Of a stretch of 64,000 nucleotides of DNA, positions 3,745 to 61,218 are shown piece by piece. The DNA comes from Suillus spraguei (lineage: Eukaryota > Basidiomycota > Agaricomycetes > Boletales > Suillaceae). How positions within the stretch are numbered: the stretch's first letter is position 1; every line of letters starts with the position of its first letter. The notes beneath the pieces are model-generated. The model was given only the letters and a program-made list of their open reading frames with translations, did not search any database and was not told the origin of the DNA. The stretch covers positions 124,001-188,000 of the forward strand of contig JABCPU010000035.1 of the NCBI GenBank assembly GCA_016800925.1. Reading direction: 5' to 3'. The position numbers and the translations under genes were made by a program.

Positions 3745-4171
3745 ATGAAGCTCTCTCTTGTCTTCACCGTGCTCGCATCCATTGTGGTTTTTGCTACAGC
3801 GTACCCCACGCAGGGAGAAACTGGCATCGCGAAACGTTCCAGTGAGTATCCACAATTTATCACCAGTATGCAGAGGTTGACCGATGTAACTTGCGCTAGA
3901 TGTGGGGAAGCGCGACTCGGAGGAACTTGACATTGATTTCACTACCTATACTGAAAGGTACAGGAAGAGGGATGAGGACTCGGAGGAACTTAGCGTCGTT
4001 GACATCGAGTATCAGTTCAATGGTAAAGACTACAGGAAGAGGGATGATGGGAAGCGTGACTCGGAGGAGATTGGCATCATCGACACCGACTATCAGTTCA
4101 AAGACTACAGGAAGAGGGATGAGGGGAAGCGAACCGTATTGAACTACTTCGATTACGATACTGATAAGTAG
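3745..4171 (+). CDS. P1: secreted Kex2-processed Tyr-rich repeat precursor (candidate RiPP)
   Basis: Exon 1 (3745-3841) encodes a signal peptide starting MKLSLVFTVLAS and ending around ATA-YP, then a short pro-segment ending AKRSS. A 58-bp GT..AG intron (3842-3899) follows, then exon 2 (3900-4171); together 122 aa in frame. Exon 2 carries dibasic KR sites that cut it into acidic segments each ending in a Tyr-rich core: TTYTERY, YQFNGKDY, YQFKDY and a distinct tail NYFDYDTDK. The spacer between cores is DDGKR or DEGKR. Kex2 would cut after KR in the Golgi, and carboxypeptidase would trim the basic ends. It is the most diverged and shortest-repeat family member on the left side. No enzyme domain is present. 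Bioactivity and modification are inferred from architecture and from the UstYa gene near P5/P6. Confidence 0.85.
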
Positions 4172-6336: not shown

Positions 6337-7052
6337 ATGAAGCTCTCTCTTGTCTTCAGCGTGCTCGCATCCATCGTGATTGTTGCTACAGCGTACCCCA
6401 CGCAAGGAGCAACTGGCGTTGCGAAACGTTCTAGTGAGCATGCATGACTCATCACTGTGCGAAGGTTGACTAACGTAACTTACTGCTAGATGTGGGGAAG
6501 CGCGACTCGTTAGACGTTGACGTAAATGACAACGACTATGAATTCAAAGATTACAGGAAAAGGAACGAGGAGAAGCGCGACTCGTCGGACGTTGACGTTA
6601 ATGACAACGACTATGAGTTCAAAGACTACAGGAAGCGCGACTCGTCAAACGTCGACGTCAACGACAACGACTATGATTTTAAAGACTACAGGAAGCGTGA
6701 CTCCGAGGAAATTGGCCTTAATGACATCGGCTATAGCTTCGGAGACTACAGGAAGAGGGATCAGGGGAAGCGCGAGTCGGAAGAAGTTGACCTCAATGAC
6801 ATCGGCTATAGCTTCGGAGGCTACAGGAAAAGAGATGAGGGCAAGCGCGGCTCGGAGGAAGCTGATGTCTACGACGACGACTATAGCTTCGGTGGCTATA
6901 GGAAGAGAGATGAGGGCAAGCGCGGCTCGGAGGAAGTTGATGTCTACGACGACGACTACAGCTTCGGAGGCTACAAGAAGAGAGATGAGGAGAAGCGCGA
7001 GTCGGACGAAACTGACACCGATGACACCACCTATGTCTTCAGTGCCTACTAG
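6337..7052 (+). CDS. P2: Kex2-processed precursor with eight Y-x-F-x-x-Y cores
   Basis: Exon 1 (6337-6433, 97 bp) gives the signal peptide MKLSLVFSVLAS..ATA-YP and pro-segment ending AKRSS. Intron 6434-6489. Exon 2 (6490-7052) completes a 219-aa protein. After VGKR come eight segments of the type D-S-x-x-[VI]-x-[VL]-N/Y-D-x-[DG] followed by a six-residue core: YEFKDY (twice), YDFKDY, YSFGDY, YSFGGY (three times) and YVFSAY, each followed by RKR (KKR once) except the last. The pattern Y-x-F-x-x-Y is invariant although the other positions vary, which is what one expects of a modified core. The spacer DEGKR (or variants DQGKR, DEEKR, NEEKR) separates most segments. The family is compared with ustiloxin/asperipin precursors, where Kex2 repeats flank Tyr-containing cores that UstYa enzymes cyclise. 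Confidence 0.88.
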
Positions 7053-30931: not shown

Positions 30932-31427
30932 ATGAAGCTCTCTCTTGTCTTCAGCATGCTTGCATCCATCATTGTTCATGCTACAGTGTAACCCACCCAA
31001 GGAGCCACTGGTGTCGCAAAACGTTCCAGTGAGTACTCATGACTAATCACTATGTGGATGTCGACAAGCATAACTTGCTGCTAGATGTAGGGAAGCGTGA
31101 TGTGGGGGAAATTGATACCAACAACTCCAACTATAAAAACTACAGGAAGCATGACTTGGAGGAAGTCAACAACCATGACACCTCCTATAAAAGCTACAGG
31201 AAGCGGGACTCAGAGGAAGAGGAAGTCAACAATAATGACTCCACCTACAAAGATTACAGGAAGCATGAATTGGAGGAAGTCAACAATAATGACTCCACCT
31301 ACAAAGATTACAGGAAGCATGAGTCAGGGGAAGTCAACAATAATGACACCACCTACAAAGACCACAGGAAGCACAAATCGGAGGAAGTCAACAATAATGA
31401 TTCCACCTACAAAGATTACAGGAAGCG

Positions 31428-31901
31428 TGTTACAGTCACACGTACCCCTATTCATTCTCTCTTTGTCTCCTTTACTTGTATATTACATAATGTGACTCTG
31501 ACTCATATGCTCAACGCATCTGTACTATAGCTGCCTTCCTTCTTTGGATACGCACTTACGTTCTCATGTCTCTCTTGGTCCGTGCGCACATATTGACCTA
31601 TTTAAGCACATTGTATTATGCTTGTATACTTTACTTTAATCTTACTGGGTTTTACCTGGAATATCCTTCGCTTAGGTCTCCAACCTAAGTCGTCTGAATC
31701 GTCTCTAAGTCTAAGCACTCCTTAGTCTTAGTCTCTATTCTGCAGATTGTCTTAGAGTCGCAACTCTTTGACCGAATCCTTGATTTTACTCAGAACACTT
31801 CCTTGTAGTAGTCTTCATTCTCTTTTGAATGCAGTCGAACCTCCCAGCAGACCAGCTGTGTCTTATCACTGTCGCTGGTGATGCCACCCCAGTTCATAAC
31901 A
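31428..31901 (+). repeat. 5' LTR of G1 (family A)
   Basis: 474 bp, TGTTACAGTC..GTTCATAACA. TATA box TATTTAAG at 31599-31606; predicted transcript start at ACTTTAATCTT, 31633-31643. Confidence 0.92.
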
Positions 31902-48822: not shown

Positions 48823-50490
48823 CAGTGGCTCAAAAAACTGTCTGCATGTTTTGACATTTTTCACTATCTATGATATTGTGTGAGAATGAACAAATTCCTC
48901 AAGGACATACTTATACCACATTGTAGTATGGCTTCAGGGCTTTTATTTGAGCCCTACACCGTGGGAATCGGCGGAGATATGGTGGAGATATAAGGCTTAT
49001 AAAATGATGACTCATGTGGACAGTTTTTTGAGTGTATATTAAAACTATATAAATCATTATTTATGACACCATAAAAATCATGCCACTATTATATAAATTA
49101 TAAAGTGGTGTCATTATGTTATTTTATGACTATATCTAACTATATAAACCAGAATATCTCATGTATCATAGTCATAATCACCATGAAAGCCATCTCCTCT
49201 GCTCAAAGAGATAATATCAATATCCTCTCTCTGTCTTATGCTGGCCTCTCTGCTCACCAAATTTCCTCTAGAACTGGAGTATGCAAGTCCACTGTGGCCA
49301 AGTTCATCAAAGAAAGCCACCCAGACAAGGAAAACTCTTGTGGAGGACGTCCATCCAAGCTTACCTCTACTGACAAAAGGGCTATTATCCAACATATCAC
49401 TACAGGAAAGGCTGATAATGCTGTCCAAGCCACCCATTATATCAATTCCACCATCACTACCCCTGTCTCTTCACAAACTGTTAGGAATGTTCTCAAGGCA
49501 GCTCATCTCAAGGCAGCTCATCTCAAGGCAGCTCATCTCAAGGCAGCTCATCTCAAGGCAGTAACAAAGAAGAAAAAGCCTCTTCTCTCCATCAAACATA
49601 GGCAGAGAAGACTAGCCTTTGCCTTAGCTCATCAACACTGGACTGTAGAGGACTGGAAGCGTGTTATATGGTCAGATGAGACCAAAATCAATAGGATTGG
49701 ATCAGATGGGAAGGTGTATGTATGGAAAAAGAAGGGAGATGGCCTAACAGACAGAGAGGTTAATGGGACTGTCAAGTTTGGAGGAGGTTCTTTAATGGTA
49801 TGGGGCTGTATGGGATGGAATGGTGTGGGAATGCTTGCTGAGGTTGAGGGGAAGATGAATGCTGAGCAGTATGTGGACATTTTAAATGACCACTTGCTGC
49901 CTAGCTTGGCAGAATCAGGGATTGATGAAGAAGATATCATTTTCCAACAGGATAATGATCCCAAGCACACATCCAGAAGAGCTAGGGAATGGTTTGAAGA
50001 ACATAACATCAATGTTCTTGACTGGCCAGCACAGTCTCCTGATGTCAATGTCATTGAACATCTCTGGGGAACACTCAAGAAAAAGCTTCAAGCCTATGAA
50101 AACCCCCCTAAAGGAGTATGGGAGCTTTGGGAGAGAGTAGCAGTGGAATGGGGGAAGATCACAGCTGAGGATTGCCAGAAATTAATTGAGAGTATGCCTA
50201 GAAGGATAGAGGCAGTAATTAAAGCCAAGGGAGGTCATACAAAATACTAGAATACCTGGTTATTACTGTAAAATACTTGAGTCAAAAAACTGTCCGCATG
50301 AGTCACCATTTTGTGAGCCTTGTATCTCCACCATATCTCCACCGATTCCCACGGTGTAGGGCTCAAATGAAAGCCCTGAAGCCATACTACAATGTGGTAT
50401 AAGCATGTTTTTGAGGCATTTGTTTGTTCTCACACAATATTATAGATAGTGAAAAATGCCAAAACATGCGGACAGTTTTTTGAGCCACTG
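48823..50490 (+). mobile_element. Tc1/mariner transposon with long TIRs, apparently intact
   Basis: 1668 bp, termini CAGTGGCTCAAAAAACTGTC, flanked by TA on both sides. The inverted repeats extend about 215 bp with some mismatches, and each contains a second copy of the terminal motif at its inner end (GGACAGTTTTTTGA at about 49019 and, inverted, about 50280). This gives an IR/DR-like layout. It encodes one full-length transposase. Confidence 0.92.
49183..50250 (+). CDS. Tc1-type DDE transposase
   Basis: 355 aa from the ATG at 49183 (an in-frame ATG exists at 49105, but the family's N-terminal helix-turn-helix starts near MKAISSAQRDNI). Order: bipartite HTH DNA-binding region (YAGLSAHQISSRTGVCKSTV, GRPSKLTSTDKR), linker with four tandem LKAAH units (identical 15-bp DNA repeats, 49495-49559), then the catalytic domain with WSDETKINRIG (first Asp), GGGSLMVWGCM, QQDNDPKHTS (second Asp) and DWPAQSPDVNVIEHLWG (Glu). 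All three acidic residues and the whole frame are intact, so the element may be functional. Confidence 0.93.
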   Translation: MKAISSAQRDNINILSLSYAGLSAHQISSRTGVCKSTVAKFIKESHPDKENSCGGRPSKLTSTDKRAIIQHITTGKADNAVQATHYINSTITTPVSSQTVRNVLKAAHLKAAHLKAAHLKAAHLKAVTKKKKPLLSIKHRQRRLAFALAHQHWTVEDWKRVIWSDETKINRIGSDGKVYVWKKKGDGLTDREVNGTVKFGGGSLMVWGCMGWNGVGMLAEVEGKMNAEQYVDILNDHLLPSLAESGIDEEDIIFQQDNDPKHTSRRAREWFEEHNINVLDWPAQSPDVNVIEHLWGTLKKKLQAYENPPKGVWELWERVAVEWGKITAEDCQKLIESMPRRIEAVIKAKGGHTKY

Positions 50491-51173
50491 TAAGCACATT
50501 GTATTATGCTTGTATACTTTACTTTAATCTTACTGGGTTTTACCTGGAATATCCTTCGCTTAGGTCTCCAACCTAAGTCGTCTGAATCGTCTCTAAGTCT
50601 AAGCACTCCTTAGTCTTAGTCTCTATTCTGCAGATCGTCTTAGAGTTTTACTTGTATATTACATAATGTGACTCTGACTCATATGCTCAACGCATCTGTA
50701 CTATAGCTGCCTTCCTTCTTTGGATACGCACTTACATTCTCACGTCTCTCTTGGTCCGTGCGCACATATTGACCTATTTAAGCACATTGTATTACGCTTG
50801 TATACTTTACTTTAATCTTACTGGGTTTTACCTGGAATATCCTTCGCTTAGGTCTCCAACCTAAGTCGTCTGAATCGTCTCTAAGTCTAAGCACTCCTTA
50901 GTCTTAGTCTCTATTCTGCAGATCGTCTTAGAGTCGCAACTCTTTGACCGAATCCTTGATCCTACTCAGAACACTTCCTTGTAGTAGTCTTCATTCTCTT
51001 TTGAATGCAGTCGAACCTCCCAGCAGACCGGCTGTGTCTTATCACTGTCACTGGTGACGCCACCCCAGTTCGTAACAAAGTGCGAGTCGCAGGAAGTCGA
51101 CACCAATGACTCCACCTACAAAGACTACAGGAAGAGGGATGACGGAGTTATCTACTACAGCAAAGACTACTAG

Positions 51174-51892: not shown

Positions 51893-54440
51893 TCAGCAGG
51901 GAATGCGGTAATCGTGTGGATGGAATGACATCACCTTAAACCTAGAGAGAAACAACGTCAGAATCTCAAATACCGCATGCAGACGATGGGACGCTCACCA
52001 GTGGTTGAAGTTAGACTCGAATTTCTTCAGGAATTCCCAGCGTTTGTTCATCGCCTGGTCGCCATCGCCGCTCTCTGCTGCTGCGAGCGCTTGATTGGCG
52101 GACTTGGTGAAGGAGGAAGTGTACAGTGCGAACGTAGAGCACGTCACTATCATGCGGGAGTACGCCTTTAAGTGGGACGATTAGTACCCGTTTGTGTCCA
52201 AGGTTGCATACGTACCCTCAGCAGTTTAGCACTCGTTAACATGCATTCTTTCAGGCACGTGTCTAGAAAGTCTACATGATCCCTCAGAAGCTGGTCTACG
52301 GTAGTTACCTTAGCCAATTTTGCCTCCAGTGCCCGCCAGTTAGGTTCAAGGACCTCAAATGTCGTGAAAGCCAGTATCTGCTGAACGAAAGCGAGCATGC
52401 GAGCTCTCAGGAGCGCAACTCGTAGTCGCCACTGTTCGAACTCGGGATGGTTTGGCACGGGACGCCGCCAGGGGCTTGTCTTCTGTTCTATCCACATCGA
52501 CGCGAGCGATTGTTCTACATGCTTGAGATGTAAGAGAAACCGGAAGAGGAGCTGGTAACGCAAAATTGTTTTGCGAGAGATGACGAGTGAAAGCGGGAAT
52601 TTCACGTTGTAGTCGAGTGTAAGGGCATCAATGGCTTGTTTAGGATGAGCAAGGACGGTGGCGCGAAGGCTTGATGCACATACCTAACATGGGTTTCTTG
52701 TCGTCCTTCTCCCGGTCGCGATCCTTCTTTGCTTCTTCATCTGGTACGCCCTCGCCTTCCTCACCGCCAATCACCCCGCTTACGCTGATAACCTTGAGTA
52801 ACCATTCATACAATCCACTGCTCGCGATACTGACTCGCACATCTTCGCGGAACGCAGCATCTTCCCCTGTAAGTGCAAGGTCGAGCAGACTCTGTAGCTT
52901 AACGATACTGACACCTTTCGCGGGCTTCTTCAGCTCTGTGTGAGCAAGGTCTAGCAGGTGGGTGAGGAAGGATGAGGAAGCCAGGAAGAAATAACGCTTG
53001 AGAGAGCGGAGCCGAGGTATGAGCTGTTGATCTTGTAGCAGGAGACGTAAGAGAGTGCGGTTCGCGTGTGTATACGCGTCTTCGATAAATTTGTAAAGCC
53101 TGAAGATATCCATGAAAAAAACACGGGAACTCAACCCAATGAAGAAACATACTTTTCATCTTCCATGGATAGCGACTTCTGCGTTAAATCCTTTTGGCCG
53201 GCTTGCACCTCGATCCCGCATTCACGTATCACGTTGAGATATTTCCCTGCCAGTAAAAACTTGTGTTTCCAACCCTCAAGAAGGGGCGGTATACAAGCGC
53301 CACCCGGTAAACGACCTCCGGGAGTACGTGGCGGAGGAACGCCTGTATGCTGGCGCTTCGAGGAAAGGGTCGAACCATCACGAAGCTATCCACACATCAG
53401 TACATATACACTCCATTTTCTCAGACCTATAGCTTACCGTATATCGCCTCTCCCAATACTCGTCCGTGTAATCTACTTCCAAAATGCCCTTACTGATAAA
53501 CTTGCTCTCCTTGACACACAACTCCTCGTACGGGTCTTCGAGACGACCCGTAGTTGTCCATACTCGGAGCATCTCGACATATGGCACCCCCGCTGCCGTT
53601 AGAAGAGTGCCGTATACCTTGACTGCGGTGGGATCACCCGACATAGTTTGCATGCGCTCGTATATCACTGTTAGCACTTCCCCGCCCTTCACATTAATAG
53701 GTGCGTCTGATGTGCTCTTCTTCATGTCAGACAAAACGGCCTTCAACTTCGCACCGCCGAGCCCAAGTGCTTCATCTCGTGCTGCCTGCTCTGGATCAGA
53801 CTCAGAAGATGATAATGAAGAAGAGGCGTCGTCATCATCGGTGGTAGCCAGTTCGAGGACGAGCTGATAGATAAGGAATAGGGTATGTACTGTCGGGTGG
53901 ACATAGAACCATAATTTCTGTAGACTGAATTGCGGCGAGGTGTTGAATGCATGTTCGAGTTGAGAGAGGAGAGTTTGGTAGTCCTTTTAAGGGGTAAGTA
54001 AGACGACGCCTGAGCAGTGGGGGCAATTGACCTTGAGCATGTCCCTGATGGCAGCGCAGAGCGCATGATTGACAAGCCCAAAATCGAGGTGGCTGCGACT
54101 CTCGACAAAAGAGGATATAGCAGTATAGTAAGTGCCGAGGGGCACTATCCGTTCCGTTAGGTCTCGAACGGACGGATCTGTAAAATGTATGAGCGACAAC
54201 AATCTCCTCTAAGCTGTGAGATAACCTAAGGGGCAGGATACGACAAAACGTATTCCCTTGAGTGGGTCGTCATCTTCCGGCGAGTATTCAGGATGGTGGG
54301 AAATGTATGTTCCCTCAATGCCCTGTAGTGATCCAGGTGAGGACGAGGTTGAGCACAGAGCAGAAGCACGAGAACAACGAAGAAACAAATTGCTCAAGAG
54401 GTTAAGAAGGGACACCAAACATCCGGTCATTGTTGTAATT
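51893..54440 (-). CDS. Gamma-tubulin complex component 2 (GCP2/Spc97 family)
   Basis: Read on the complement. Exons seen include IEGTYISHHPEYSPEDDDPL (about 54270-54330), ERIVPLGTYYTAISSFVE (about 54110), a 48-bp intron after AAIRDMLK (54033-53986), SPQFSLQKLWFYVHP and an acidic linker, GGEVLTVIYERMQTMSGDPTA and KVYGTLLTAAGVPYVEMLRVW (53530-53690), FFMDIFRLYKFIED (about 53100), NVKFPLSLVISRKTILRYQL (about 52590), LEPNWRALEAKLAKVTTVDQ, and AMNKRWEFLKKFESNFNHW (about 52010). GCP2 helps build the gamma-tubulin ring complex for microtubule nucleation at the spindle pole. The last residues after NHWFKV (TGA at 51893-51895) differ from the family and the end is short; the first exons are not identified upstream of 54440. 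The gene may be N-terminally truncated. Confidence 0.8.
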
Positions 54441-56374: not shown

Positions 56375-57279
56375 CTAGTAGTCTTTGTAGTTGGAGTCGT
56401 GGTCGCCGACTTCCTCCGAGTCGCGCTTCCCCTCATCCCTCTTCCTGTAGTCTTTGTAGTTGGAGTCATGGTCGCCGACTTCCTCCGAGTCGCGCTTCCC
56501 CTCGTCCCTCTTCCTGTAGTCTTTGTAGTTGGAGTCATGGTCGTCGACTTCATCCGAGTTGCGCTTCCCCTCGTCCCTCTTCCTGTAGTCTTTGTAGTTG
56601 GAGTCATGGTCGTCGACTTCATCCGAGTTGCGCTTCCCCTCGTCCCTCTTCCTGTAGTCTTTGTAGTTGGAGTCATGGTCGTCGACTTCATCCGAGTTGC
56701 GCTTCCCCTCGTCCCTCTTCCTGTAGTCTTTGTAGTTGGAGTCATGGTCGTCGACTTCATCCGAGTTGCGCTTCCCCTCATCCCTCTTCCTGTAGTCGTT
56801 GTAGTTGGAGTCGTGGTCGTCGACTTCCTCCGAGTCGCGCTTCCCCTCGTCCCTCTTCCTGTAGTCTTTGTAGTTGGAGTCGTGGTCATTGACTTCCTCT
56901 AAGTCGCGCTTCCCCTCATCCCTCTTCCTGTAGTCGTTGTAGTTGGAGTCATAGTCGTCGACTTCCTCCGAGTCGCGCTTCCCCTCATCCCTCTTCCTGT
57001 AGTCTTTATAGTTGGAGTCATGGTCATTGACTTCATCCGAGTTGCGCTTCCCCTCATCCCTCTTCCTGTAGTCTTTATAGTTGGAGTCATGGTCATTGAC
57101 TTCATCCAAGTTGCGCTTCCCCACATCTAGCAGCAAGTTACGCTTGTCAACAGCTGCATAGTAATGAGTCATAAATACTCACTGGAACGTTTCGCCATGT
57201 CAGTGGCTCCTTGGGCGGGGTACGCTGTAGCAAGAATAACGAAGGATGCGAGCACGCTGAAGACAAGAGAGAGCTTCAT
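56375..57279 (-). CDS. P5: Kex2-processed precursor with eleven N-Y-[KN]-D-Y cores
   Basis: Exon 1 (57279-57183, 97 bp) encodes signal peptide MKLSLVFSVLASFVILATA and pro-segment ending AKRSS; intron 57182-57127; exon 2 57126-56375; 282 aa in total. Exon 2 is a 69-bp tandem array of 23-residue units. Each has the spacer DEGKR, an acidic segment such as NSDEVDDHDS or DSEEVGDHDS, the core NYKDY (NYNDY in two), then RKR. Kex2 after KR and trimming would yield 15-mers like NSDEVDDHDSNYKDY, eleven per precursor. Four central units are identical in protein and nearly so in DNA, so the array grew recently. The gene lies 1.4 kb downstream of the UstYa-like gene on the same strand and is the best candidate substrate. 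Confidence 0.9.
56380..57110 (-). repeat. 69-bp coding tandem repeat of P5
   Basis: About ten and a half copies in register with the 23-residue protein repeat. Units in the interval 56520-56780 are the most alike. Confidence 0.93.
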
Positions 57280-57450
57280 GTTTGGGTTGAAATGTCGGTG
57301 GGACTGGTACTTTGTAGATGCATTACATTGGAATCTTCAGGAGGGCTTTATACCTTTTCGTAGGTCCACAGAAAGGGGTTGTTCTAAGTGGACGGTCGCA
57401 GTAATCAGCCTTCAGTCTCGCTGACATTGCAAAATTACTCACTGGCAGCG
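57280..57450 (-). promoter_or_regulatory. Shared precursor promoter block, P5
   Basis: On the complement: TATA box TATAAAG (57352-57346), a downstream block related to 'gaagattccaatgtaatgca', and the upstream 'gcgaccgtccacttagaac' segment. The CCAAT/'gggtcatgagtgg' part seen in other copies is absent, so this promoter is shorter. Confidence 0.65.
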
Positions 57451-58717
57451 AAGCAAAGCCATCAAGCCGAATTCTCATCCCCGGATGAGCACGGTCACGG
57501 TCATGGTGCATTGGGCAGTCGGCAGGTCCTTTCATGCGACAATATGATATGTAAGAGGAGCAACCATCAGTGGACTGGTGGACACACTCGCGCAGTAGAG
57601 GACAGCCGCAGTAGGTACCATCATAGATACCGATGTGCAGAATGGGTTTTTGTTATATAGCCATGTATAGAGGTTGCATTTCGCAATGCACGACAAAGTT
57701 AACCCAATGCAAGAAGGCGCAAGCACCATCATTGATTGCCAAAAATACGATGACCACTTCTATTAATATTCTAAGCACCGCTAGTGCTTCCGCTGATCCC
57801 GTGATGAGTCGATGAAAATCAATGTATTTGCTATCTTAGCAAGCTAGTAGCAGATAATTCAAAGTAGTGTTAGGAATCCGTTTCCTTCCACCATTCGTAC
57901 GCGTTCCAGGGTTCAAACATCAACTGGTAACGTCACAGATGTGTGCCTTGTGAGTCAGCATTCATTTACCCCGTCGTTATCATCCTCAATGATTATTACG
58001 ATTTCATTCTTGCTGCGGTATGTCACATCATAGTCTTCAACACAGCTCCTGATAACAAACAATTGCCAGGTTCTGATCCATGATCCAGTTGCTGGTTGCC
58101 ATTGCAAATGTAAACCCTGGTGTAAGAACTGTGCCTCTATTCACCGCTTTTACTGGCATGAGGAATTCAGCACGACGCGTACCAGTGTAGAGGAGCGACT
58201 TAAAAAAAAGTTTTGAAATTACTACAAACTTACTTCCATGGGGCACCGATACTATCGGTGCCCCATGGAAGTAAATTATAGCTGCGCCAAAAATTATAAC
58301 TCGCATCATTGTTCACTTTGGATTTGCTATCAGATGTCTTAGAATAGAGGTGCGACTCAAATGGCAACATTTGAGTCTAGTAGATACAGAAAGAAGCGAG
58401 TACTAACTGCTGACTGAGCAAGTACTGGCACAGTCGGCACTAAAAATACCAGTAAGACGTTTCCGACGACCATACAGAACAAGATTCAAAAAAAAAATGA
58501 GATTTCGTATTCCTACTACTCAGTTTTGGACTTGTTCGTGTCTGAAGCCCTGAAGCTTGAGCCCACATGAGTGCACTATCAAATATACCATTCATTCCTA
58601 CGTCATCGATGTACTAAGAATACATTTATTCGACCGAGCTCCTGATCATTGCCGTTCTTGCAAGATACTTGTGAACAGTATGTGGTGAGTAAGCAGCACC
58701 ATATTCCTTATCCATCG
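57451..58717. other. Intergenic between UstYa-like gene and P5
   Basis: No protein gene supported. 57450-57660 resembles 61450-61640 upstream of P6, a trace of the P5/P6 duplication. A perfect palindrome lies at 58230-58274. Confidence 0.5.
58230..58274. repeat. Perfect 45-bp palindrome
   Basis: 22-base arms (TTACTTCCATGGGGCACCGA plus TA, and its exact reverse complement) around a single C. It sits between the UstYa-like gene and P5, about 440 bp beyond the UstYa stop. As DNA it could extrude a cruciform or bind a dimeric regulator; as RNA it would be a strong hairpin. Confidence 0.9.
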
Positions 58718-59760
58718 CTATCCATCAGCAAGATGGGCAGGTAACGGCATGTCAACTGTATCTTCGAAACGAGTAACCTCCGAGTCAGGAATATGCACCG
58801 CATGCTTGGCAGACCAATCCAAGATTTTCTCGTAGTCCCTGCATTGATGAAGGGTATTGAAGTTAGGGTATGGGGTGTCGTGTCCCTCAACCCAGTCCCA
58901 TGTTATCAATGTCACGTCTGCACTGCACATGATATTCTGCCTGATCATTTCAATGCAATGATCTGTAATGTATACGATAAGCAGGAGGTGCATAATATAA
59001 AAAATCGTACAAACCAAGATGCATGCGAAGTACTCCGGGCCTGTCCTGGAACGAAATATCTGTGGGTGCGTAATTCTCGCGCCACGAGGATTTGCGAAGA
59101 AGATTCTACAAAACGTCAGGGGAGAACGGCTAGACTTTCGATGTAGTATAGCTTACTAGACAATGGAGTTGGTGAGGGGCCTCCATGGCTACCATGAAAC
59201 CCCCACCAAATTTGGCTGGGAACTTGACCTTGGAAGGGGAATCTACTTCGCCGGTTTTGATAATCTCCTCGAGCGACATTCGAGTTGGTCGCACTGAGGT
59301 TTCATGGGTGTGAATAACTACTAATGAAGATGATGAACGACGCACCATCGCGAGCTATTCTGGACCAAGCGGCATCAATTTCTGGCGAAGGAGGGCCGCG
59401 ATAGATAGAAGGAAAGTCGAGCGTTCCGTTGAGTCTTACAATCGTAGACTCAACGGCGCCACTTGCTGGAGCTGTGACAGATCATCAACACTATGTTAAC
59501 TCTCCGAGGATGTCTGTTCACTCACAGTATACAGCAAGTTCATCAAGCAGGTGGGGCGAAGGCGTGCCCATCCATAACGTGAAAAAAAGAATCGATGTGC
59601 ACATCAACACGCCATGGCTCAATATAGGCCACATGCGAAAGATATGCAACTTGGGGCGAGCTTTTGCGCGGAATGTTTCTGCAGCATCAGCGAACGGTTG
59701 CTCCTCATCATTGTCAACAGCGTCGACAGGAGAGTAGTGCTGTGAAGAATCTTTGTTCAT
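58718..59760 (-). CDS. UstYa-like oxidase (DUF3328), candidate peptide cyclase
   Basis: Five exons on the complement: 59760-59526, 59471-59346, 59293-59157, 59105-59015, 58962-58718; introns 51-54 bp with GT..AG ends; 277 aa in frame. A charged cytosolic N-terminus precedes one transmembrane segment (about residues 46-64, SHGVLMCTSILFFTLWM). The family signature follows: NGTLDFPSIYRGPPSPEIDA, FPAKFGGGFMVAMEAPHQLHC with the first HxxHC (161-165), MHLDHC with the second HxxHC (195-199), then CSADVTLITWDWVEG and HQCRDYEKILDW. All hallmark residues are present. UstYa proteins oxidatively cyclise core peptides of ustiloxin-, phomopsin- and asperipin-type precursors after Kex2 handling in the secretory pathway. 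Flanked by precursor genes P5 (downstream) and P6 (upstream) on the same strand. I infer that it modifies their Tyr cores; this is not shown by sequence alone. Confidence 0.93.
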
Positions 59761-60885
59761 GACCCTGGGGGAACTCTGTTTGCTAAACTCAGAAATTGTA
59801 AAGATAGTAGGGAAGCACGAGGGTAGATGCGATACATATCCCAAGAAATATCTAAGGGCGCATTGATTTCGAATATATTCCCCATTAGGTGTGTTAGATT
59901 ATTGTACAGCAGTCCCATCAGTGCGAGGGTACGGAATTCCTGGTGCTACGGAGCGCTAGAAGGTGTGAACTCGGAGAGTTTGCCTTTAGAGATAAGTCTG
60001 ACTGAAAGAAGTTCAGGAACACTCAGAAGGACAACGTGGATATATGCAGATAGATGCAATCTTGGTGATGCTTGCTCCAGATGATACCTCACTTCGATGA
60101 GTGAGTGTGTACCTGCCGTTATTTGCGGAGATCTCAGATGTAGGTCAAATCGGAAAGCGCACTAATTAGAATGAGGAATAAAGATTGTACATGCGCTACT
60201 TTATACCCTAACGTTAAGGGTCCTTGGGTATGTCTAGGCCAAACCATTGGGTGAAAATGGAGGCGGAAGGGACTGGTGTTGCACCCGACAGGGTAAAATA
60301 GAATGGAAGAAAAAGAGGGTACAAAAATTGAGTGAGTAGTGGTATGAATGGAAATGATATTGATAGAATAACGACAATCTATACAAATTGCTGACGGATA
60401 GATTGCGAGTAGGTGACGGTGATCAGAGACGAATTAAGGGTCTTTTGACGAGGAAAGGAATTGACGGAGAAATGAGGACGATGATTGTGCTGACTGAGGC
60501 TGGCGGTGAGCTGTTGATTCCTTCGGCTATTTCCGGTGGTAAACGATTTGTAATCCTGCTTATTTTCAACAGGAACTGAGAGCACTTGAAGTGACAACGT
60601 GCGTTGGAAAATGCAATATGAAATGCCATCAGGTGACAGCATAGTGGCAAGAACGCAGATAAGTCTATATATTTAAGTCAAAGAAACAACCGGGTGATTG
60701 TATTACATGGGTACGTCCAAGCAATCAGATAAGGAGATCAAGATGTGTAGATGTACAGGGAAGTAACTTGTGGGTAAGGCTACGACGATGCCAGACCTAG
60801 TATGACGGATAAATCCCATAAAAGATGAAGCATACGACTGTAACTCACCTGCGCAAAATCTGGTGTCAAGTTCCTCAGGCTCGCA
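59761..60885. other. Intergenic between P6 and UstYa-like gene
   Basis: No gene supported. The part adjacent to P6 (60590-60780) is the conserved precursor 3' flank. An open frame at 60388-60579 (+) has coding-like composition but no recognised relatives. Confidence 0.45.
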
Positions 60886-61218
60886 CTACTGGTAGTCGTA
60901 GTAGTCTTTGGTGTAGTCAACAATGTCCACTTCCTCCGAGTCCCGCTTCCTGTAGCTTTTATAGGAGGTGTCATGGTTGTCGACTTCCTCCAAGTCGCGC
61001 TTCCTGTAGTTTTTATAGTCGGAGTCATTGGTATCAATTTCCCCCAAGTCGCGCTTCCCTACATCTAAGCAGCAAGTTATGCTTGTCAACATCCGCATAG
61101 TGATGAGTTATGAATACTCACTGGAACGTTTCGCGATGCCAGTGGCTCCTTCAGTGGGGTACGCTGTGGCAAGAACGACGATGGATACGAGCACGCTGAA
61201 GACAAGAGAGAGCTTCAT
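60886..61218 (-). CDS. P6: short Kex2-processed Tyr-rich precursor
   Basis: Exon 1 (61218-61122, 97 bp) encodes MKLSLVFSVLVSIVVLATA and a pro-segment ending AKRSS; intron 61121-61065; exon 2 61064-60886; 91 aa. Only three segments follow VGKR: one ending in DYKNY-RKR, one ending in SYKSY-RKR, and a terminal one ending DYTKDYYDYQ without a dibasic site. DEGKR spacers are absent. The first two segments match the start of the broken P3, so P6 and P3 form a subfamily. It is encoded 1.1 kb upstream of the UstYa-like gene on the same strand. Confidence 0.88.

Follow-up and report, generated by a model that had tools for sequence, protein, structure and literature searches.

Asperipin-2a of Aspergillus flavus (aprA/aprY) is made from a Kex2-repeat precursor with one DUF3328 enzyme, AprY, which is essential and is credited with sequential oxidative macrocyclization of the hexapeptide core FYYTGY to a bicyclic product; no tyrosinase stands in the four-gene list of that cluster (PMC6514808). 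AprY was reported to depend on copper and O2, as was the DUF3328 protein CctR, in which the motif pair HxxHC(x)nHxxHC is needed, and roles in oxidation, halogenation, macrocyclization, and isomerization have been proposed for DUF3328 proteins (PMC12435403). Ustiloxin B (ustA, ustYa/ustYb, ustQ) comes from ED- and KR-bounded units that Kex2 releases as 13-14-mers, with two DUF3328 genes taking part (PMC6514808), and both ustiloxin and phomopsin, with cores YAIG and YVIP, require a tyrosinase (PMC7329392, PMC6514808). For basidiomycetes, Umemura (2020) counted DUF3328 genes near 103 of 1680 Kex2-repeat proteins and noted Tyr and di-His repeat types (PMC7329392). The processing of Kex2-repeat proteins in Agaricomycetes is known (PMC9769878), and UstYa-like genes of Pleurotus have been described as probably serving dikaritin production (PMC8893723; further sources are PMC9233826, PMC6339444, and PMC12409109). 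Here we describe a cassette of Suillus spraguei with the same architecture and neighborhood as the cases of Umemura: two precursor genes, P5 and P6, on either side of a gene for a UstYa/DUF3328 oxidase, all on the minus strand at positions 56375-61218 of a 64,000-nucleotide stretch (the window). The window corresponds to bases 124001-188000 of a contig of 303,512 bases (JABCPU010000035.1, below C536) in a genome of 86.2 Mb in 1256 contigs. The kind of cassette is thus already known, because basidiomycete Kex2-repeat proteins with DUF3328 neighbors had been counted before.

An earlier sequence-only reading had proposed the three genes as a cluster for a dikaritin-like ribosomally synthesized and post-translationally modified peptide (RiPP), and our gene models place them at the same coordinates and on the same strand. 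The reading that we favor, with a probability of about 0.6, is that P5 and P6 are secreted precursors processed by Kex2 and that the adjoining UstYa is a Golgi binuclear-copper oxidase modifying the aromatic C-terminal ends of the released peptides, most likely by a Tyr cross-link. The cassette would then be one scattered part of a family in Suillus whose leader and promoter stay constant while its cores diverge. What the sequences themselves hold is a signal-type leader, KR and RKR sites, mostly aromatic-x-x-Tyr ends, an intact enzyme, and repeated co-location.

P5 (56375-57279, minus strand; 282 amino acids) begins with the ATG at 57279, and its stop codon ends at 56375; the leader exon (57279-57183) is followed by a single 56-bp GT-AG intron and exon 2 (57126-56375). 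The protein has 11 Kex2 units of 15 residues set apart by an RKR-DEG-KR linker, and Tandem Repeats Finder gave a 69-bp unit in 10.9 copies with 95% match. The sequence-only reading had counted NYKDY 11 times; the 11 units are present, nine ending in SNYKDY and two in SNYNDY. P6 (60886-61218, minus strand; 91 amino acids; ATG at 61218, stop ending at 60886; exons 61218-61122 and 61064-60886) has three units that end, as had been claimed, in DYKNY, SYKSY, and DYTKDYYDYQ. Tyr occurs in every unit of both proteins. Kex2 cuts at KR would leave fragments of 15-18 residues, of which NYKDY is only the C-terminal end; the short Tyr cores proposed earlier therefore hold as Tyr ends, and the peptide likely to be released has 15-18 residues rather than five. 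Predicted linear [M+H]+ values are 1815.694 for NSDEVDDHDSNYKDY, 1772.688 for DSEEVGDHDSNYKDY, 789.341 for the short end SNYKDY, and 1761.745 and 1814.772 for units of P6.

By their leader, KR/RKR sites, and repeats, P5 and P6 are Kex2-processed repeat proteins. Their secretion signal, a hydrophobic MKLSLVFSVL...ATA leader, was judged by eye, no signal-peptide predictor being used. The ascomycete alpha-pheromone families MF_alpha and MF_alpha_N were not found, either in P5, which matched no Pfam family at E values up to 1, or in a paralogue of 229 amino acids, which had only two unrelated Pfam matches far under the cut-off. A TATAAAG box precedes the start of P5 by 73 bp (57346-57352, minus strand), and another lies upstream of P6 (61296-61290, minus strand). 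DNA of the P5 leader and promoter recurs at 20 other places in the genome with 80-87% identity (haplotype copies included), besides shorter pieces, and the arrangement of P5 is therefore not due to chance.

The UstYa gene lies 1.4 kb from P5 and 1.1 kb from P6 (58718-59760, minus strand; exons 59760-59526, 59471-59346, 59293-59157, 59105-59015, and 58962-58718), so that precursor genes adjoin a DUF3328 gene, as in loci for dikaritin-type RiPPs. The sequence-only reading was right in describing an intact DUF3328 protein of 277 amino acids with both HxxHC motifs, here HQLHC and HLDHC, encoded in five exons. The match to PF11807 spans profile positions 14-220 of 220 (E 2.6e-55; 188.1 bits, cut-off 25), and with the HxxHC(x)nHxxHC pattern it assigns the gene to the DUF3328/UstYa family. 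An alignment of 52 proteins chosen from the 120 UstYa matches listed has C165 invariant and H161, H164, H195, H198, and C199 conserved in at least 90%. Nearest to the window UstYa among the matches listed are the S. decipiens proteins P0001 (92% identical) and P0002 (84%) and an S. spraguei paralogue at 97.7 kb of C536 (84%), whose gene model (C536:97718-98770) is identical residue for residue to the database protein P0003. The gene of P0001 is uninterrupted, in a record marked partial. A model of P0001, a monomer of moderate confidence (mean pLDDT (predicted local distance difference test) 70; pTM (predicted template modeling score) 0.54), predicts a membrane-type N-terminal helix at residues 39-65, consistent with the membrane anchor proposed earlier, and places the two motifs on separate predicted helices (158-173 and 189-209). 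No meaningful relative of UstYa appeared in a search of solved structures, and comparing the fold of the P0001 model with the PDB gave no match (best E 4.4). The window gene and its 97.7-kb paralogue have four introns each; between them dN/dS is 0.37 (dS 0.27), and the window UstYa has therefore stayed under constraint.

The composition of the predicted fragments suits an enzyme that acts on aromatic ends. Among 51 fragments of at least 10 residues from seven C536 precursors and one precursor on contig C969, 45 have a terminal Tyr, which in 43 cases is preceded three residues earlier by Phe or Tyr. Tyr accounts for 32% of positions within the final six residues, against 2% elsewhere, and the six-residue ends come in 27 distinct forms. 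In five copies, P5 and those starting at 100328, 105112, 108240, and 130337 of C536, the Tyr that closes the final unit is followed at once by the stop codon, which fits Tyr being the true C-terminus after trimming. In the database homologues introduced below, 98 of 132 fragments of at least nine residues have Tyr within the last eight, with Tyr at 19% of the last six residues and 6% before. Selection on cores as compared with spacers gave 0.16 vs 0.39 in P5, 0.29 vs 0.60 in the copy at 130337, 0.53 vs 0.61 at 108240, and 0.39 vs 0.26 at 100328, the units of the last three copies having been picked by a pattern that already requires YxFxxY. P5 and 130337 suggest constraint on the core, 108240 hardly does, and 100328 does not, and we therefore draw no conclusion from this comparison.

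Under the favored reading, the precursors would be secreted, cut by Kex2 at KR, and trimmed by Kex1 to acidic 15-18-mers, as the motifs and Agaricomycete processing suggest. The released peptides would then be oxidized by the membrane-bound UstYa, whose binuclear copper site is predicted from the family property seen in CctR, and by analogy to asperipin-2a the oxidation would most likely join C-terminal aromatics within one molecule through a Tyr side chain. The window UstYa would act on the peptides of P5 and P6 in this way, and a cross-link in these peptides would make them a dikaritin-type RiPP. Because no listed tyrosinase or cytochrome P450 match falls on C536, the nearest working analogue, judged from gene content, is asperipin-2a and not ustiloxin or phomopsin; of the three analogies drawn by the sequence-only reading, only that with asperipin-2a was retained. 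The FYYTGY core is aromatic-rich and Tyr-ended and is comparable to the YTFGGY-type ends of Suillus. Asperipin-2a differs in coming from an ascomycete, in its core sequences, and in having one precursor gene as against nine copies on C536. A transporter and a reductase are further members of the apr cluster; beside the Suillus cassette neither came up, in an incomplete search that scored 9 of 320 candidates for major facilitator superfamily transporters and was not aimed at reductases.

The tyrosinase family PF00264 had one weak match in the whole genome (contig C1146, E 7.2e-4) and none on C536 in a six-frame, exon-wise search, which sets the cassette apart from the ustiloxin and phomopsin subgroup. 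A cytochrome P450 was considered as a partner and rejected: none of 127 listed matches, from 92 of 423 candidates scored, is on C536. Within what these scans covered, the cassette looks minimal, with precursors and oxidase. A Kex2-type gene (P_proprotein) was found at one locus genome-wide, on two contigs that are apparently alleles, by an exon-wise search that may miss some; three kex2 genes have been reported for C. cinerea and other agaricomycetes.

The cassette is an outlying satellite of a larger array on C536 and not a stand-alone three-gene cluster; the gene set proposed by the sequence-only reading stood, and its extent did not. Read over 1-198 kb, C536 has nine precursor copies, starting at 100328, 105112, 108240, 127745, 130337, 154932 (degraded), about 175.1 kb (a fragment), 181279 (P5), and 185218 (P6). 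The eight with a leader share its sequence (MKLSLVFSVLASIVVLATAYPTQGATGIAKR type), a 97-base exon 1, the intron, and the promoter, whose TATAAAG box lies at -67 to -78 in all eight, and differ in their cores. The units follow one plan, in which an acidic spacer leads to an aromatic end, (R/K)KR, and mostly a DEG-KR-like linker. Four of these copies fall in the window on the plus strand. The first (3745-4171; C536 127745, database protein P0125) belongs to the same leader family and encodes 122 amino acids in exons 3745-3841 and 3900-4171. The second (6337-7052; C536 130337) encodes 219 amino acids in exons 6337-6433 and 6490-7052, with eight YxFxxY-type units (FKDY, FGDY, FGGY, FSAY). The third (30932-31530; C536 154932) is degraded, with a stop codon in the signal peptide and several KR sites changed to KH, and the fourth is a leaderless fragment (51084-51173) that reads ESQEVDTNDSTYKDYRKRDDGVIYYSKDY and then a stop.

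Seven further UstYa genes lie at 32-99 kb of C536. On the contigs fetched, the last exon divides the UstYa genes between two clades of seven members each, with the window gene counted, and a tree of database proteins likewise separates P0003, P0010, and P0032 from P0088. By tblastn, pairs made up of a clade I and a clade II gene occur on C536 (at 33/34.5, 85/86.5, and 97/97.7 kb), on C969 (two pairs), and on C1213 (one pair); in a further pair on C536, at 53.5/55 kb, only a remnant of the clade I gene is left. The pairs at 32-99 kb resemble the two DUF3328 genes of ustiloxin (PMC6514808), from which the solitary window UstYa differs. One clade II copy (C536:86463-87457) has HQLRC in place of HQLHC as its first motif and is possibly inactive. 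Five contigs carry leader DNA: C536 with C896, its apparent haplotig, C291 with C707, and C969; C896 with C536, and C291 with C707, carry matching copy sets and look like alternative haplotypes. UstYa matches occur on C536, C291, C707, and C969, the nearest 1-8 kb from a precursor. The S. spraguei database precursors P0141 and P0131 lie on C969 and C707, respectively.

Precursor and enzyme also recur together across the genus. Profile searches, in which about 8000 candidates sharing most words were scored, returned at least 53 distinct precursor proteins (P0121-P0173); 50 carry a species name, and all 50 are from Suillus, in at least 18 named species including S. bovinus and S. brevipes. Their leaders are well conserved and their cores diverse (FKDY, FGGY, YAFGEY, YPFDY, YPLG, YQEYIV, YRDIY, YSGYDHHM, and others). 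The S. subaureus proteins P0136 and P0138 have repeated LYPLG units of the Tyr-x-Ile/Leu-Gly form of ustiloxin YAIG, a resemblance only. For co-location, two proteins were taken to share a contig if species and (longest) contig size agreed; 120 of 263 UstYa matches were listed, and P0147, P0148, P0150, and P0173 were left out. At least 24 of 49 precursors share a contig with a listed UstYa, on 17 of 40 contigs and in 14 of 18 Suillus species. Outside S. spraguei, 16 of 36 contigs have both, where 0.69 would be expected for genomes of 35 Mb (P about 2e-19; the chance model assumed 35 or 50 Mb and took contigs as independent). The co-location that the sequence-only reading had put forward for checking thus recurs in many Suillus species at the level of contigs, and its proposal of a Kex2-repeat/DUF3328 system with an intact enzyme in a basidiomycete is likewise borne out. 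Locus tags of precursor and UstYa are consecutive in S. weaverae (959526 and 959527) and four apart in S. subalutaceus (784253 and 784249).

The precursor P0148 is an uninterrupted reading frame of 74 amino acids on a contig of 1117 bases and reads across the place of the S. spraguei intron, and at least 23 of the 120 listed UstYa proteins have at least 250 residues and come from lgn/jgi contigs of under 3 kb. We take these records to be spliced transcripts of relatives from environmental data; they do not bear on P5 and P6 themselves.

The same leader is also found on a different kind of core. Two intact copies on C291, starting at 140378 and 144314 (283 and 316 amino acids), have DDDHHKKHP-type units without Tyr ends, with 14 and 17 matches to HKKH units. 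The sole UstYa match on C291, 8-12 kb from them, lies in a gene whose exons contain stop codons; the Tyr-type copies there give only short models of 60 and 73 amino acids. UstYa copies with internal stops were seen at C291:131800-133600 and C707:36900-38200, with short decayed Tyr-type repeats after them. The pattern on C291 fits a working UstYa being linked to Tyr-type cores, at one locus, where it could be coincidence.

Several observations weigh against a role of UstYa in maturing P5 and P6. The leader stands also on His-rich cores and alone is therefore no marker of a UstYa substrate. Neither P5 nor P6 is among the 53 database proteins found, and for 25 of 49 precursors the contig bears none of the listed UstYa proteins (120 of the 263 matches). 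The 28.5-kb S. decipiens contig that encodes P0001 and P0002 has no listed precursor, and haplotig C896 bears precursors without a UstYa match. The window UstYa, of clade I, is solitary where others on the fetched contigs are paired, and its promoter has no 8-mer in common with the precursor promoters at the threshold set. In the fragments themselves, 6 of the 51 from C536 and C969 lack a terminal Tyr, the proteins of two intact copies, 127745 and P6, terminate in residues other than Tyr, and Tyr and Phe are both absent from the last eight residues in 28 of the 132 database fragments.

One alternative is that the peptides of P5 and P6 stay unmodified, as linear signals or defense peptides, and that UstYa is a neighbor acting on something else. 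The peptides detected in Coprinopsis, Lentinula, and Pleurotus were linear or carried minimal modification (PMC9769878). In Basidiomycota, DUF3328 stands near only 103 of 1680 Kex2-repeat proteins, and the author of that count suggests that the cyclization motif may differ or that cyclization may hardly occur there (PMC7329392); the His-core precursors, too, have the leader with no intact UstYa found on their contig. Co-location in 14 of 18 Suillus species is far over expectation, however, and aromatic residues are selectively enriched at the C-terminal ends of the fragments; we regard this explanation as unlikely, though not negligible.

Somewhat less likely again is that UstYa oxidizes the peptides and closes no ring, by hydroxylation of Tyr or C-beta or by desaturation, as some DUF3328 proteins do; the varied reactions of the family (PMC12435403) are not told apart by sequence. 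The setting of Tyr repeat precursors is nearer to the asperipin and ustiloxin cyclases than to non-ribosomal cyclochlorotine, however, and the two-aromatic spacing kept in 43 of 51 fragments suits a reaction between two residues. In the least probable explanation, the cassette left the main array by duplication, with a single UstYa, and has since decayed and lost its product. Two of six window precursor copies are degraded, transposon sequence lies in the surroundings, and the clade II partner of other UstYa loci is missing. Against decay, the three genes have intact frames and GT-AG introns, UstYa has a dN/dS of 0.37 and an uninterrupted 92% homologue in S. decipiens, and P5 keeps 11 uninterrupted units, its TATA box, and its promoter.

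Beyond a role of UstYa at this cassette, we suggest tentatively, and with somewhat less than even confidence, that one fixed leader and promoter on many Suillus precursors with hypervariable cores (YxFxxY, YKDY, YPLG, YQEYIV, HHKKHP), served by a few shared, paired UstYa copper enzymes of two clades without tyrosinase, may constitute a RiPP family peculiar to Suillus that spans the genus and diversifies fast. Suillus species form ectomycorrhizae with hosts in the Pinaceae. In the MSDIN family of Amanita cycloamanides, one conserved leader is likewise combined with many paralogous precursors and hypervariable cores; MSDIN precursors have no signal peptide and a single core, are processed by prolyl oligopeptidase, and yield head-to-tail rings. 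The likeness thus lies in the conserved leader and hypervariable cores, and if the suggestion is right, the Suillus family would be a Kex2-pathway counterpart of MSDIN, yielding peptides cross-linked at Tyr, and perhaps at His, in fungi that live in ectomycorrhiza with pines. To our knowledge, a cross-linking UstYa of this kind would be among the first basidiomycete DUF3328 enzymes with products of known chemistry. One genome would then offer natural core variants for probing what a DUF3328 cyclase accepts, and the peptides would be candidate signals to host or microbes in an ectomycorrhizal genus.

A constant leader with hypervariable cores, His-rich ones included, is unusual, and we found no earlier description of it. 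No paper on the Suillus precursor family was among the matches listed in a literature search that mostly did not extend to subscription journals, and in the passages covered PMC7329392 neither mentions Suillus nor describes such a family. In a paper on the S. bovinus genome, the table of secondary metabolites credits S. bovinus, S. brevipes, and S. luteus with 0 clusters of the fungal-RiPP class (PMC10971629), despite the precursor family in at least 18 species.

Between P5 and UstYa, at 58230-58274, lies a 45-bp perfect inverted repeat with 22-bp arms around one base; its flank and part of one arm match four places on C291 and C707 at 85%. On checking, no function was found for it. In the array, selected open reading frames of at least 85 amino acids at 80-111 kb of C536 were scanned with Pfam, shadow frames and known precursor and UstYa frames having been dropped and the group at 82.9-88.5 kb and a few others left out; a hAT transposase domain was the only match. 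Among ten chosen reading frames of the window, three match gamma-tubulin complex domains and two match transposase or retroelement-protease families, and five are without a match. At 49075-50247 lies a frame for a transposase of Tc1/mariner type, in which DDE_3 and HTH domains were matched, and the housekeeping neighbor of the cassette is a gamma-tubulin complex component gene (52171-53986, minus strand) with the GCP N- and C-terminal domains.

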